Source of the DNA: Candidatus Bathyarchaeota archaeon
GTDB lineage: Archaea > Thermoproteota > Bathyarchaeia > Bathyarchaeales > Bathycorpusculaceae
Length of the DNA stretch: 35,552 nt
Direction of reading: 5' to 3'
Assembly: GCA_029879735.1 (NCBI GenBank)
Contig: JAOUPS010000010.1
Coordinates: forward strand, 1-35,552
In this document: positions 14,597-34,472 of the stretch, piece after piece
Layout: every line of letters starts with the position of its first letter
Numbering within the stretch: position 1 is the first letter of the stretch
Translations under genes and position numbers: made by a program
Notes under the pieces: generated by a model
Database searches by the model: none
What the model was told of the DNA's origin: nothing
What the model saw: the letters and a program-made list of their open reading frames with translations, nothing else

Positions 14597-14627
14597 AGGT
14601 CGAAGGAAGGAATTAAAATTTAATTTT
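14597..14627 (-). repeat. AT/CCTTCCTTC interspersed element, copy A
   Basis: On the minus strand it reads AAATTTTAATTCCTTCCTTC with flanks. It is related to copies at 18150-18180 and 23697-23728 and lies about 40 nt before a CG element. Confidence 0.45.
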
Positions 14628-14665
14628 CAAATTATCCCACTGTTGTAGAATGAATGTTCCATTGA

Positions 14666-15693: not shown

Positions 15694-15810
15694 GCACACA
15701 CGTCTCACTTGAACCCTGCTGTGTGCAAATAATTCCAGCCTGATTTCTGTGCACACAACATCACCTCTCTGCAGTGTGCACGTTCATGCGTTGAAACTGT
15801 GTGTGTGCAT
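15694..15810. repeat. Cluster of five alternating TG/CA motifs
   Basis: GCACACACGT (15694-15703), GTGTGCA (15721-15727), TGTGCACACA (15748-15757), GTGTGCACGT (15774-15783) and TGTGTGTGTGCAT (15798-15810). All alternate purine and pyrimidine, and one is a palindrome. Confidence 0.6.
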
Positions 15811-15826
15811 TAAAATTTAATCCCAA
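15811..15826. repeat. AT element ATTAAAATTTAATCCC, copy B
   Basis: TAAAATTTAATCCC followed by AAACCC. It is nearly identical to the copy at 16850-16869 and directly follows the last TG/CA motif. Confidence 0.5.
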
Positions 15827-15891
15827 ACCCAAACCCAGAAAATTAGACTTTGCTTCTCTTCTTCTTCCATTTGCTCTTTTTGTACTAATTT

Positions 15892-16849: not shown

Positions 16850-16869
16850 AATTAAAATTTAATCCCCAA
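16850..16869. repeat. AT element TTAAAATTTAATCCCCAAAC, copy C
   Basis: Nearly the same as the copy at 15811, in the spacer after the Lrp-like gene. Confidence 0.5.
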
Positions 16870-16907: not shown

Positions 16908-17357
16908 CTACAGCAAAACAAATTCAGTTTTGGCCTGCTTCAGTGAAATCACAGACGTGCTTTTTTCAATGCCTTCTCGGGTGAGAATGCTCTTTAATAC
17001 GTCATAGTATTCATCCTGATTCTTTGTCCTAACTTTAAGGACGACATCCCATTCTCCGGCAATGATGTCTGCACTATCAACCTTTTCATATCTAGCCAGT
17101 TCACCTACGATCTGGTCAGGGTCAGCACCTGCTTTAGCGGTTAATTTGATGAAGAGATACACACAAAAACCTTCATCGATTTTCTCGTAGTCAAAAACAG
17201 CCTTGTAGGTTTTTATCGCTCCTTCATTTTCCAGCTTCTTTATGTTGTAGTGTAAAGTGGCAGAGGGTTCATTTATTGTCTTTGCTATTCTCGCTATCTG
17301 CGGTGTACAGTAACCCACTTTGAACAGCCTAATCAGTTTGGGCCTTATATTCTTCAT
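16908..17357 (-). CDS. Lrp/AsnC-family transcriptional regulator
   Basis: The 149-residue protein has an N-terminal winged helix (about 1-55, TPQIARIAKTINEPSATLHY) and a C-terminal RAM domain (about 62-140, FCVYLFIKLTAKAGADPDQI...), which in this family binds amino acids and drives octamer formation. It is divergent from a LysE exporter, the classical pairing in which the regulator senses the exported amino acid. The frame opens at TTG 17399, but the minus-strand TATA box TTTTTAAATA (17378-17387) lies inside that extension and puts the start site at about 17357, exactly at ATG MKNIRPKLIRL. The mRNA should be leaderless. A decayed copy of its first codons is found at 18192-18251. Confidence 0.92.
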   Translation of the reverse strand: MKNIRPKLIRLFKVGYCTPQIARIAKTINEPSATLHYNIKKLENEGAIKTYKAVFDYEKIDEGFCVYLFIKLTAKAGADPDQIVGELARYEKVDSADIIAGEWDVVLKVRTKNQDEYYDVLKSILTREGIEKSTSVISLKQAKTEFVLL

Positions 17358-17430
17358 ATTATTAAACAATGTTCGATTATTTAAAAATTTTTCGTTCAAA
17401 AATTGAATTTTATTCAGATAGATAATTATA
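17319..17430. repeat. 112-bp direct repeat, left copy (Lrp promoter and first codons)
   Basis: Aligns without gaps to 18213-18324 with 93 of 112 bases equal by eye. Its right end stops exactly before the CG element at 17431. Confidence 0.75.
17378..17387 (-). promoter_or_regulatory. TATA box of the Lrp-like gene
   Basis: TTTTTAAATA on the minus strand, centred 25 nt before ATG 17357, predicts a leaderless transcript. Confidence 0.6.
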
Positions 17431-17441
17431 ACGCGCGCTAG
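17431..17441. repeat. CG element ACGCGCGCTAG
   Basis: Lies between the two divergent genes, directly at the end of the 112-bp repeat and 24 nt before the LysE start. Confidence 0.65.
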
Positions 17442-17464
17442 TTGGGGTTAGTTAGGGATAAAAT

Positions 17465-18091
17465 ATGACTGAAGGACTTGAATTTTTAATTTCAGGAATG
17501 ATCTTTGGTCTCGCTGCTGGAATATCTCCCGGGCCTGTTCTTGCTTTGGTTTTTTCTGAGACTGTGAAGTATGGAAGAAAAGAAGGAGTAAAAATCGCGA
17601 TTTGTCCTCTGATTACAGAGTTACCGATTGTTCTATTTGTATTGCTCATATTATCAAATTTAGTAAAACATGGCTTTGTAATTGGAGCAATCTCTCTGTT
17701 TGGTGCTTGTTATTTAATTCATTTAGGTTTTGAGAATCTGAGAGTCAAAATTAGCGGATTTGAGGTTGAGTTTGCAAAAGAAGATGCTCTAAAACGAGGG
17801 GTTATTGCGAATTTCTTAAATCCTCATCCTTACCTGTTTTGGCTCTCTATTGGTGGTCCAATGATTTTCGAAAGTTTGGATATACACATTTCGGCAACAG
17901 TTCTTTTCATCTCAGGATTCTACAGTCTGCTTATCGGGTTGAACATAGGTATTGCTTTAATTGTAGAAAAATCTAAGTTCTTTATTGAAAGCAAGTATCA
18001 TCTTTACGTTGTTCGTGCTTTAGGGATTGCATTAGTCTTGTTCGCAGTAATTTTTGTAAGAGATGGTCTAAAATTAATGGGCATATTTTAA
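17465..18091 (+). CDS. LysE/RhtB-family amino acid exporter
   Basis: The 208-residue protein has six hydrophobic segments and LysE signatures: GISPGPVLALV (about 20-30) in the first helix and NFLNPHPYLFW (about 118-128). Such proteins export basic amino acids, threonine, homoserine or similar metabolites through the cytoplasmic membrane. The divergent Lrp-like regulator probably controls it. ATG 17465 has no strong ribosome-binding site. The gene is bracketed by the 112-bp direct repeat and by CG elements, so the pair may have been rearranged or duplicated and then partly lost. Confidence 0.93.
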   Translation: MTEGLEFLISGMIFGLAAGISPGPVLALVFSETVKYGRKEGVKIAICPLITELPIVLFVLLILSNLVKHGFVIGAISLFGACYLIHLGFENLRVKISGFEVEFAKEDALKRGVIANFLNPHPYLFWLSIGGPMIFESLDIHISATVLFISGFYSLLIGLNIGIALIVEKSKFFIESKYHLYVVRALGIALVLFAVIFVRDGLKLMGIF

Positions 18092-18100
18092 GTACTGCGG

Positions 18101-18110
18101 CGCGCGTGTA
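18101..18110. repeat. CG element CGCGCGTGTA
   Basis: Lies 9 nt after the LysE stop and is followed by ACCTTTTCTTT, which could help end transcription. Confidence 0.55.
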
Positions 18111-18149
18111 ACCTTTTCTTTCCAAAAAGTCAGCCTCAACTGGATAAAG

Positions 18150-18178
18150 AAGAAGATAAAATTTTAATTCCTTCCTTC
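18150..18178 (+). repeat. AT/CCTTCCTTC interspersed element, copy D
   Basis: AGAAGATAAAATTTTAATTC then CTTCCTTCC, running directly into the CG element at 18179. It is the same motif as at 14597 (inverted) and 23697. Confidence 0.5.
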
Positions 18179-18190
18179 CGCGCGCGCTAA
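18179..18190. repeat. CG element CGCGCGCGCTAA
   Basis: Nine alternating bases next to the truncated Lrp copy, one base before its in-frame stop at 18192. Confidence 0.7.
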
Positions 18191-18191
18191 A

Positions 18192-18251
18192 CTAGCTTAG
18201 TGAGTAGTCTTTTTTGAACAGTTCAATCAGTTTGGGTTTTATGTTCTTCAG
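18192..18251 (-). pseudogene. Truncated Lrp-like gene fragment
   Basis: The minus strand reads LKNIKPKLIELFKKDYSLS and a TAG, matching the first 15 residues of the Lrp-like protein (MKNIRPKLIRLFKVGY). The start codon is CTG instead of ATG, and similarity ends just before the CG element at 18179. It is the coding part of the right copy of the 112-bp repeat and a relic of a second regulator gene. Confidence 0.7.
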
Positions 18252-18324
18252 ATTATTGAATGATATTCGATTATTCAAATATTTTTTGTTCATAATTTGA
18301 ATTTGTTTCAGATAGGTAATTATA
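18213..18324. repeat. 112-bp direct repeat, right copy
   Basis: Diverged copy of 17319-17430, including the former TATA region. Many differences are transitions. Together the copies flank the LysE gene. Confidence 0.75.
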
Positions 18325-18380: not shown

Positions 18381-18623
18381 ATGAGAAAACTGTTTGGAAC
18401 AATAGGGAGATTAAAACTATTCAGATTAATCCGAGGCGTAAGAATGGGAGACATGGATGCTTCCCTACGCACGGACTCAAATGAAGACCAAGAACAGACG
18501 AAAACTTTCAGTTCGGACGCTTATGTTTTGGCCAAAAAACGTAAGCATGAAATTGAAGCGCAGAAGGCTATGGTGATGTTTGAGTCACGCCATGACAAAT
18601 GGAAGGCAGGAGGACCTCTTTAA
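18381..18623 (+). CDS. Small charged protein, unknown function
   Basis: The 80-residue protein begins MRKLFGTIGRLKLFRLI, a basic amphipathic stretch that could touch membrane or nucleic acid, followed by an acidic, Gln-rich part and a basic C-terminal helix (YVLAKKRKHEIEAQKAMVMF). ATG 18381 has AGGTGG about 6 nt upstream, so I prefer it to the upstream extension to 18297, which overlaps the promoter repeat. It lies between the LysE gene and the toroid gene. The family is not recognised. Confidence 0.55.
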   Translation: MRKLFGTIGRLKLFRLIRGVRMGDMDASLRTDSNEDQEQTKTFSSDAYVLAKKRKHEIEAQKAMVMFESRHDKWKAGGPL

Positions 18624-18640: not shown

Positions 18641-18653
18641 TTAGCGCGCGCAC
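18641..18653. repeat. CG element TTAGCGCGCGCAC
   Basis: Lies 18 nt after the stop of the small charged protein gene, in the convergent spacer. Confidence 0.65.
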
Positions 18654-23126: not shown

Positions 23127-23134
23127 CGCGCGCG
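23127..23134. repeat. CG element CGCGCGCG
   Basis: Lies 5 nt after the stop of the ABC permease gene. Confidence 0.6.
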
Positions 23135-23148
23135 ATGACATCAACAGT

Positions 23149-23430
23149 TTGCTATTCATTCAGTGTTCAAAGAGAATGATTTCTGCGAATAGTGAACAGA
23201 GAACGTTAATCGATATTTTCAGTGAACATTCATTTTTGAACCGTTCAGTTCTCGTAAACGGTCAAATTCACTCGGAGGAACAGATTTTAATGTTCAGAAT
23301 ATGTGAAACGTGCGAAAAAGGAACATTCAAGTTGAGAGACAAGAGGCTGAAACCGTATTCACTCTTTATTCGCGATTCAAACGTCTATCCTCTGTTTTCC
23401 GTTCCCTCCATTTTGAACATTGCTGAATGA
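23149..23430 (+). CDS. Doubtful 93-residue ORF
   Basis: The frame opens at TTG 23149 and has an internal ATG at 23176 (MISANSEQRTLIDIF). It contains one CETCEKG that could be half of a zinc ribbon. The DNA is unusual for repeated GTTC/GAAC words (for example GTGAACATTC, TTGAACATT). No ribosome-binding site or homologue is evident; it may be a remnant. Confidence 0.2.
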   Translation: MLFIQCSKRMISANSEQRTLIDIFSEHSFLNRSVLVNGQIHSEEQILMFRICETCEKGTFKLRDKRLKPYSLFIRDSNVYPLFSVPSILNIAE

Positions 23431-23490
23431 TTTCGAACTACAAAAAAGGAATGATCAATTCTCTCAAAATGAGCATCCTCTAAAACGAAA

Positions 23491-23499
23491 GCGCGCGCG
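23491..23499. repeat. CG element GCGCGCGCG
   Basis: Nine alternating C/G bases in the gene-poor stretch. Confidence 0.6.
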
Positions 23500-23659: not shown

Positions 23660-23728
23660 AAGGGAAGGAGTTTGGGGAAACCCACGTTTTCCCCGAGAAG
23701 AAGATATAATTTTTTTCCTCCTTCCTTC
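23660..23728. repeat. Nested inverted repeat with CCTTCCTTC element (copy E)
   Basis: The inner arms GGGGAAA (23674-23680) and TTTCCCC (23688-23694) pair perfectly around CCCACGT. The outer arms GAAGGGAAGGAG and CTCCTTCCTTC pair with one bulge. The right half (AAGAAGATATAATTTT..., 23697-23728) is the same interspersed motif as copy D. Confidence 0.55.
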
Positions 23729-32125: not shown

Positions 32126-32290
32126 ATACCGTCATAATGAAGCACGCTATTTCATTCTCGGGAAACTTATTTAAGTAAGAAGGCATCCCCCAATCAAGTT
32201 TAGGAGTGCATAGAAAGGTGGAGTTAAAGGACTCTTTGAGAGAGACCTTGGCCTTACTGAAGGAGGAACTGTGGATGGAAGGTGGGCAGG

Positions 32291-33532
32291 ATGAAGCTAG
32301 CCAACATCTCGCACTACTTCGGCAGAGATGCTCTATCGCCAAGGTTTCTGAAAGAAGCCCTTATTGCGTTTTCCTTCAACATCGGCGGAATACTCGCCGG
32401 CTTTATAGTTGCCTCTCAGCTTAACGTTTTTCAGCTTTCTCCATGGGCTATTGCAGTGTACCCCGCTATCTTGACTGCGAGAGGTGTGATAAGCGGTCTG
32501 TTTAGTGGACGCTTAAGCACCGCACTGCATATTGGCACAATTCATCCGAGACTTCGTGGAAACACAAAAAGCTTCTACATGCTTTTCAAATCCCTAATAG
32601 TCATAACTTTGGAAACAAGCGTTGCGATGAGCTTGGTATCCATGATTTTTGGGAGCTTGTTCTGGGGGATAACCTTCGCAGACTTTTCTGACATTCTGAT
32701 AGTAATATTGGCAACCATGATCTTAGGGTTGACAAACTCCCTGTTTACAGTTGAAATTGCTTTCATTTCTTTCAAGAAGGGGTTAGACCCTGATGTGATT
32801 GTGTATCCAATAATGTCTACGGTGGCGGATATAGTCATAACGTTGTGTTATGTTTTCGCACTTAACTTGTTCTTTTTATCGGGTTTCGTTGGCAGATACA
32901 TTGTTATTTTTTTGGGAGCGGCACTCATTATCCTTGCATTGGATGTTTTGCCAAGGTGCATCCACGACCAAGGATTCGTCAAAACAATTAAAGAGTCTCT
33001 ATTAACACTTGTTTTCGTAGCCTTTGTTGTCAACGTCACTGGAACAATTCTGAAGAATATTAGTGAAATCGTGGGTAGTAGAAAGGAGATTTACACCGTT
33101 TATCCCGCTTTGATTGACACAGTAGGGGATGTTGGTTCAGTTGTTGGTTCTACAGCCACGACAAAGCTGGCGTTAGGTTTGCTTAAACCTTCTTTTGATG
33201 GAATACGGAACCATGCAACACGAATTTCTGCCACATGGACTGCGTCAATAATTATGTTTACTGTATACTCTATTTTATCACTTTTTACGCAAGGCACATT
33301 CACGTTGCATGCGTTTCTAGGGTTTGCTTCTGTTCTACTCATAACAAACATAATTGCGGTTTCTGCGATAGTTCTAGTATCCTACGCTGTTGCAATCTTA
33401 ACTTTTAAAAAGGGGTTAGACCCCGACAATTTTGTTATTCCAATTGAGAGTTCCCTTGCAGACGGTATAACCTCTATCGCTTTGCTTGTTGCCTTGGTTT
33501 TGGCAAACTATATGGTTTATGGGGGAGTGTGA
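32291..33532 (+). CDS. MgtE/SLC41-type divalent cation transporter
   Basis: The 413-residue membrane protein is built from two related halves, as in SLC41 proteins: YPAILTARGVISGLFSGRLS in the first half and YPALIDTVGDVGSVVGSTAT in the second, plus KKGLDPDVIVYPIMSTVADI and KKGLDPDNFVIPIESSLADG. These Asp-rich, Pro-containing helices line the Mg2+ path in MgtE. The N-terminal CBS/MgtE_N sensor domains of bacterial MgtE are missing. ATG 32291 is preferred to GTG 32282, because AGGTGGG ends 5 nt before it. A short frame from 32206 (MHRKVELKDSLRETLALL) precedes and overlaps it in another frame and could be a leader peptide. Confidence 0.9.
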   Translation: MKLANISHYFGRDALSPRFLKEALIAFSFNIGGILAGFIVASQLNVFQLSPWAIAVYPAILTARGVISGLFSGRLSTALHIGTIHPRLRGNTKSFYMLFKSLIVITLETSVAMSLVSMIFGSLFWGITFADFSDILIVILATMILGLTNSLFTVEIAFISFKKGLDPDVIVYPIMSTVADIVITLCYVFALNLFFLSGFVGRYIVIFLGAALIILALDVLPRCIHDQGFVKTIKESLLTLVFVAFVVNVTGTILKNISEIVGSRKEIYTVYPALIDTVGDVGSVVGSTATTKLALGLLKPSFDGIRNHATRISATWTASIIMFTVYSILSLFTQGTFTLHAFLGFASVLLITNIIAVSAIVLVSYAVAILTFKKGLDPDNFVIPIESSLADGITSIALLVALVLANYMVYGGV

Positions 33533-33891: not shown

Positions 33892-34440
33892 TTAAAGTAG
33901 GACCTTCATCTCATTAAGTCTCCGCCGAAGATTTTCCACAGCCTCATAGACATCCTTTTCCTTTTTCGCGCCAGCGCAAACAATCTTGCCGGAGGAGAAT
34001 ATTAGGAAAACCACCCTAGGACTTTCCATTCGGTAAATCGCAGCTGGAAACTGCTCCGGCTCATACATGAGGCTCCCGCCCATGGGAGCTCGTTCGCACA
34101 AGGCTTCAAGGTCAACCGGGGAACCGAGGCTTCCAGAAGCAACGATGTTCGTTATCTGTATCTCCGGCTTTCCGGTGATGATTATGCCAGCCGTTTTTAG
34201 CTCCTTGGCAACCTTCAAGATTGACCACCTGGCCTCCTTCTCCGACTTGGCACCAGTGCAGACCATCCTGCCGCTGTTGAAGATGAGAGCGCACGTCTTG
34301 GGCCTCTTCAGCCTAAAGGGGAGCCCAGGAAAAACGTGCGGTCGGTACTCGACGTGTGGAAAAGCCTTAACTATGGCGTCCAAGTCGATTCCGTGTTTGA
34401 AGGAGGCTGAGGCCACGACGTTCTGAATTTTAGTTTCCAT
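33892..34440 (-). CDS. tbp: TATA-box binding protein
   Basis: The 182-residue protein is made of the two direct repeats of TBP: IQNVVASASFKHGIDLDAIV... FNSGRMVCTGAKSEKEA (about 5-75) and ITNIVASGSLGSPVDLEALC... FSSGKIVCAGAKKEKDV (about 97-165). It binds the TATA box and, with TFB, recruits RNA polymerase. Phe and Val residues of the DNA-bending surface are in place. ATG 34440 is used; the frame extends to a TTG at 34455. It is downstream of the TFS gene by 32 nt and followed directly by a small membrane-protein frame. No acidic tail is present. Confidence 0.96.
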   Translation of the reverse strand: METKIQNVVASASFKHGIDLDAIVKAFPHVEYRPHVFPGLPFRLKRPKTCALIFNSGRMVCTGAKSEKEARWSILKVAKELKTAGIIITGKPEIQITNIVASGSLGSPVDLEALCERAPMGGSLMYEPEQFPAAIYRMESPRVVFLIFSSGKIVCAGAKKEKDVYEAVENLRRRLNEMKVLL

Positions 34441-34472
34441 ATTCTTTGCTTTCAAGGCTTCCAGAACTCAAT

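Follow-up and report, generated by a model that had tools for sequence, protein, structure and literature searches.

Autoregulated lrp promoters serve a divergent partner gene over a common control region. The locus described here resembles these promoters in that lrp is transcribed divergently from its partner across shared control DNA, but it departs from them in that copying of the control region has placed it beside a new partner, the exporter gene lysE, and a different Lrp ligand-binding half. The copies lie beside short runs of alternating CG, referred to here as CG tracts, for which several described palindromic systems offer partial parallels.

Palindrome targeting is reported for some members of the IS1182 family. 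One of them, IS1272 of staphylococci, is reported to target inverted repeats without target-site duplication, and the model proposed for it allows for a route in which the entire palindrome becomes duplicated on either side of the insertion sequence (IS) (PMC5678879). An IS in the genome studied here likewise encodes DUF772 and DDE_Tnp_1 and may insert into palindromes; however, IS1272 replaces varied stem-loops, whereas here both ends are bounded by alternating CG, and fragments other than the IS are also CG-bounded. The GC clusters of yeast mitochondria, which proliferate and have been linked to recombination-mediated exchange, share with the tracts the character of short dispersed GC-rich palindromes in an AT-richer genome, but they are conserved and longer (42 nt for GC42), in contrast to the bare dinucleotide runs of 7–11 nt found here (PMC4478555). 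HIP1 (GCGATCGC) of cyanobacteria, discussed with respect to DNA methyltransferases, is also a very frequent short GC palindrome that is uneven between genomes (PMC4390886); unlike HIP1, the tracts are strongly intergenic and located at joints.

The locus lies in the window, by which we mean the whole analysed stretch of 35,552 nucleotides from a Candidatus Bathyarchaeota archaeon (GenBank contig JAOUPS010000010.1). Its features are as follows, with the strand given for genes.

16908–17357, minus strand: lrp, an Lrp/AsnC regulator gene, with its ATG at 17357 and an open frame back to 17399
17150–17175: homology switch in lrp between the window and C20 (crossover or gene conversion), without a CG tract
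17319–17430: left promoter-module copy, the 5′ part of lrp plus a bidirectional promoter, now before lysE
17395–17407: TTCAAAAATTGAA palindrome, candidate Lrp operator (predicted function)
17432–17438: CG tract at the promoter/lysE joint; its C20 counterpart is degraded to GCGTGAGC
17465–18091, plus strand: lysE, a LysE-type exporter gene, 208 aa, matching PF01810 over nearly the whole length (E=1.9e-20)
18100–18106: CG tract 3′ of lysE; C20 also has a tract, about 28 bp past lysE
18179–18187: CG tract where the right-hand lrp stub is cut off
18192–18293, minus strand: lrp stub, Lrp residues 1–34 with one stop codon; own-genome match E=5.2e-8
18213–18324: right promoter-module copy, before the small gene
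18381–18623, plus strand: small gene, 80 aa, no Pfam match, six more genome matches, C-terminus SRH[DE]KWKAGGPL
18644–18651: CG tract 3′ of the small gene
Elsewhere in the genome (blastn): further promoter-module copies at C130 (89%), C20 (87%) and C79 (76%), and a partial copy at C20:6789–6849

The longest direct repeat within the 5 kb searched was the 112-nt pair 17319–17430 and 18213–18324, with 83% identity (93/112) and a blastn E-value of 1.4e-27 in the 2.14 Mb genome. A sequence-only reading of this DNA had reported the same pair of 112-bp copies with 93 matches; the pair is real, but it is not the whole family, as the genome holds at least five copies of the module. Each copy comprises the 5′ part of an Lrp/AsnC gene and the promoter upstream of it, and TTCAAAAATTGAA is retained as a near-palindrome in most of the copies compared in this and other genomes. 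The two window copies have the same orientation, lie 894 bp apart and adjoin tracts at their ends much as had been described: the left copy ends at 17430, two bp before its CGCGCGC tract, and the coding part of the right copy is cut beside another, with the end of the lrp stub 4–5 bp from the tract at 18179–18187.

Comparison with other loci revealed where the module comes from. The right copy continues past the 112 bp into small-gene sequence homologous to C130 and C79; at C79, the module sits between a frameshifted lrp and a divergent gene of 80–100 aa, and the divergent lrp/small-gene pair recurs in at least eight other genomes of the order. At a threshold of E≤1e-30, Lrp relatives turned up in ten further genomes from the order and in none of the other genomes of the family. 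The lrp loci found in other genomes of the order carry the module, most with a divergent small ORF, although the distant small ORFs show weak sequence homology (17% in one aligned) and are linked by position and a common C-terminal pattern. The repeated 112 bp represent the divergent promoter of an old lrp/small-gene pair, shared by both genes, together with the start of lrp. The right copy is the ancestral arrangement, with the small gene intact and lrp reduced to a stub.

The small genes encode an 80–100 aa family without a Pfam match and with the common C-terminus SRH[DE]KW[KT][AS]GG[PA][LY]; a genome scan with the small protein picked up a single additional record, from a Ca. Bathyarchaeota bin. 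C156 encodes an otherwise different 155-aa protein with the same SRH-type ending, as if the tail were portable. Members of the family are listed below.

Window: 18381–18623
L033: 4040–4282
L034: 1882–2136
L035: 4984–5241
L036: 3646–3903
L037: 3043–3297
L038: 3479–3946

The left copy has a different neighbour. A genome search found one lysE paralogue, 81% identical, at C20, which carries a second lrp-promoter-lysE set with the decayed joint tract listed above. In six other genomes, the matches to LysE relatives begin no earlier than about the start of lysE (query position ≥145) and lack the promoter module, so lysE is the newcomer and the joint lies within 17430–17465, at the tract. The left copy is the ancestral promoter, with a CG tract at its fusion to lysE. 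The sequence-only reading had instead proposed that regulator and exporter, lrp plus lysE, were duplicated in tandem and that the second copy was then deleted between CG tracts. Two co-oriented copies with their ends beside tracts are what such an event could leave; however, the right copy runs on into small-gene sequence, the lrp/small pairing is ancestral, being present at C79 and in other genomes of the order where the promoter sits between lrp and the small gene, and no trace of lysE is found on the right, the only lysE copies detected being 17465–18088 and that at C20. The missing remnant and the ancestral pairing contradict a tandem duplication of lrp plus lysE, and a history of this kind is highly improbable.

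The regulator itself also appears to be composite. The Lrp encoded at 16908–17357 has a C-terminal RAM ligand-binding domain (PF01037, E=1.2e-10); no Pfam HTH match was found, though the N-terminal half is its most conserved part. Residues 1–65 of the window and C20 proteins are 95% identical and the remainder 44%, and at the DNA level the two loci share 88% homology over 930 bp (17162–18091), which then stops. The C-terminal halves of the two proteins fall into different groups from other genomes, with modest tree support. The split in identity and the different C-terminal groups indicate that the DNA-binding half, promoter and exporter moved jointly onto another sensor half through recombination within lrp near 17162, where there is no CG tract. 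An independent tandem copy of lrp plus promoter, with ends lacking a CG tract, was observed in another genome (G126:C4; L128, L131).

CG tracts are far more abundant than composition predicts. Over both strands, the window has 40 occurrences of GCGCGCG compared to 1.2 expected from dinucleotide shuffles, and 1.13 Mb of the genome (70 contigs) contains 254 tracts of at least 7 nt, 213 of them between ORFs, whereas a first-order Markov model for intergenic DNA predicts about 7 intergenic tracts. Tract density is about 25-fold higher between ORFs than within them, and the spacing of tracts is more even than random, with about one per occupied intergenic region. This under-dispersion led us to dismiss the pairing of tracts as proof of cassettes. 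No conserved sequence flanks the 213 intergenic tracts beyond an A/T preference next to the tract, and the idea that tracts are the ends of REP/MITE-type repeats was dismissed on the same grounds. Only 2 of 80 conserved gene pairs hold a tract compared to about 8.6 expected (length-stratified sum), a shortage that fits joining at tracts and may also reflect operon constraint, and intergenic DNA that aligns to the relative G019 contains 2 tracts compared to 15 expected. Across the order the abundance of GCGCGCGC is patchy and is highest in this genome (388). A dispersed intergenic GGAATTAAAATTTTAATTCC-like motif, present in the window at 14602–14628, 15809–15827, 16851–16869, 18148–18178 and 23696–23728, often lies within 80 bp of a CG tract, with AAATTTTAAT about 9-fold enriched.

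Analysis of duplication ends, obtained from all-against-all blastn in 1.13 of the 2.14 Mb of this metagenome bin with crude ORF calls, revealed that CG tracts are associated with duplication breakpoints in this genome. Thirteen of 114 distinct ends (≥80% identity, ≥100 bp) lay within 3 bp of a tract, compared to a mean of 3.9 and a maximum of 9 in 300 trials in which each tract was shifted inside its own intergenic interval. Among the 2080 6-mers near intergenic duplication ends, GCGCGC ranked first and CGCGCG second, with GCGCGC at 19 of 128 ends versus 2.85 expected (21-bp windows, p=8.6e-11). After exclusion of the window contig and of the promoter family, 12 of 85 ends remained versus 2.16 expected (p=1.7e-6), in 8 of 27 families. 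Since ends within a family are not independent, the safer figure takes one random end per family, which gave about 5 of 34 versus 0.86.

The link between break points and CG elements that had been proposed from the window therefore held when other duplication ends were checked, genome-wide and apart from the repeat that suggested it, but it is not universal. About 85% of duplication ends have no tract, and both the lrp crossover near 17162 and the tandem lrp copy in G126 are away from tracts. Ends of blocks aligned to G019 showed no tract excess (4 versus 4.1) at a DNA identity of 78%, which blurs the ends, and the 35 tracts of G019 are too few for a comparison at its self-duplications. As for the suggestion that the elements are recombination or fragile sites, this genome supports the association, and the mechanism considered below is conditional.

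The shape of the joints is consistent across the junctions examined, where homology to the source stops at the tract edge or within a base or two. Source-side microhomology into the tract is 0–2 nt, except for one pair with CG in both copies; this is about the chance level, and microhomology-mediated joining at the source side was dismissed. The tract is present in only one copy in 22 of 28 pairs. In 27 of the 28, no resumption of homology past the tract was detected, which led us to dismiss insertion of a bare tract into an otherwise continuous copy. Tracts are found at both ends of a 142-bp segment at C90, the promoter-small unit of C130 (C130:23864–24299) and a 47-bp repeat; the stub-promoter-small unit of the window is also flanked on both sides, less sharply than in C130. 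No insert-free empty site of a CG-bounded insert was seen.

Other duplicated segments next to tracts were observed in passing. The C90 segment (C90:5216–5357, L052) duplicates the start region of a gene that lies at a distance of 4 kb. Three copies of a 365-bp repeat with abundant GTTCA/TGAAC motifs occur at window 23127–23499, C84:29994–30354 and C55:757–1077; those in the window and at C84 have a CG tract on either side. The gene for TATA-binding protein (window 33892–34455) has a truncated paralogue at C155:13860–14183 with its broken end at a CG tract, and the neighbouring MgtE-like gene (32282–33532) is also duplicated in C155, again ending at a CG tract.

A possible source of such joints is the IS1182-like element. 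C9 carries two copies (one at C9:27550) encoding a DUF772/DDE_Tnp_1 transposase (PF01609, 1e-24; PF05598, 2.3e-15), with the terminal inverted repeat (TIR) TAGSCTGTTTAGAAATT at both ends of both copies and GCGCGC on each side. For relatives in other genomes with the different TIRs CAGCCTGTTGCTAAATT, TGGCTTGTCCCTAAATT and ATGCGTGTTCCTAAATT, GCGCGC precedes nearly all ends seen. Because no other target duplication was seen around the copies in this genome or the relatives, we infer that GCGCGC is probably the duplicated target of the IS rather than its conserved tip. With only two full copies compared to hundreds of tracts, the IS cannot be the sole user of the tracts.

We propose two layers, promoter re-use and CG tracts as preferred sites of insertion or joining, a reading that we give about an even chance of being right. 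The old divergent promoter of lrp and the small gene has been copied several times and re-used with different genes; in the window, one module copy has been joined to lysE at a tract, and the other has kept the small gene while its lrp was truncated at a tract. The CG tracts, as alternating palindromes of 7–11 nt that are mostly intergenic, may be favoured sites at which the IS1182-like transposase or another structure-selective nuclease makes a staggered cut at the two feet of the palindrome. The IS or a stray fragment would then be joined, and fill-in would provide each joint with a complete CG tract; the site would come first and the insert second. Alternatively, the tracts could be scars, the product rather than the target of a Ku-independent end joining that adds or copies alternating CG, which we consider rather unlikely. 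The presence of the tract in one copy only of most pairs, its full length at each joint and the near absence of microhomology are consistent with scars, as is the location of some source positions inside coding sequence, which seldom contains tracts. Searches detected no Ku in this genome (bin 91% complete) or in the 23 genomes whose GCGCGCGC count reaches 60, and detected it in 33 other genomes of the comparison, a pattern that would suit scars but is confounded by phylogeny, and many Ku-less genomes have few tracts; Ku-dependent end joining was dismissed because Ku was not found here. However, an enzyme that adds nothing but alternating CG is not known to us, and IS copies with diverse ends that are nearly all GCGCGC-bounded fit a target better than a scar. 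We therefore prefer duplication of a target, which seems roughly twice as credible as scars. The fuller claim, that the tracts are the scar of an unknown Ku-independent joining pathway and that hundreds of intergenic tracts record past rearrangements, is a little less likely again than scars as such.

The even spacing of tracts is simply predicted by neither target nor scar, and at near one per occupied intergenic region, with the strong concentration between ORFs, it would suit ordinary intergenic elements such as terminators, insulators or protein sites that coincide with duplication ends at gene boundaries. Against such elements, the excess at duplication ends survives shuffling of tracts within their own intergenic intervals, CG stands above every other 6-mer at intergenic ends, and tracts are rare both in conserved gene pairs and in aligned intergenic DNA. 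We regard ordinary elements as improbable, more so than either form of the scar explanation.

The locus shows a promoter and the DNA-binding half of a regulator put to use again with another output gene and another sensor half. If the tracts are hot spots for insertion or joining, or scars, genomes of this order would show visible marks of their joints, which would make the history of rearrangement legible in the sequence and allow a search for a specific enzyme.
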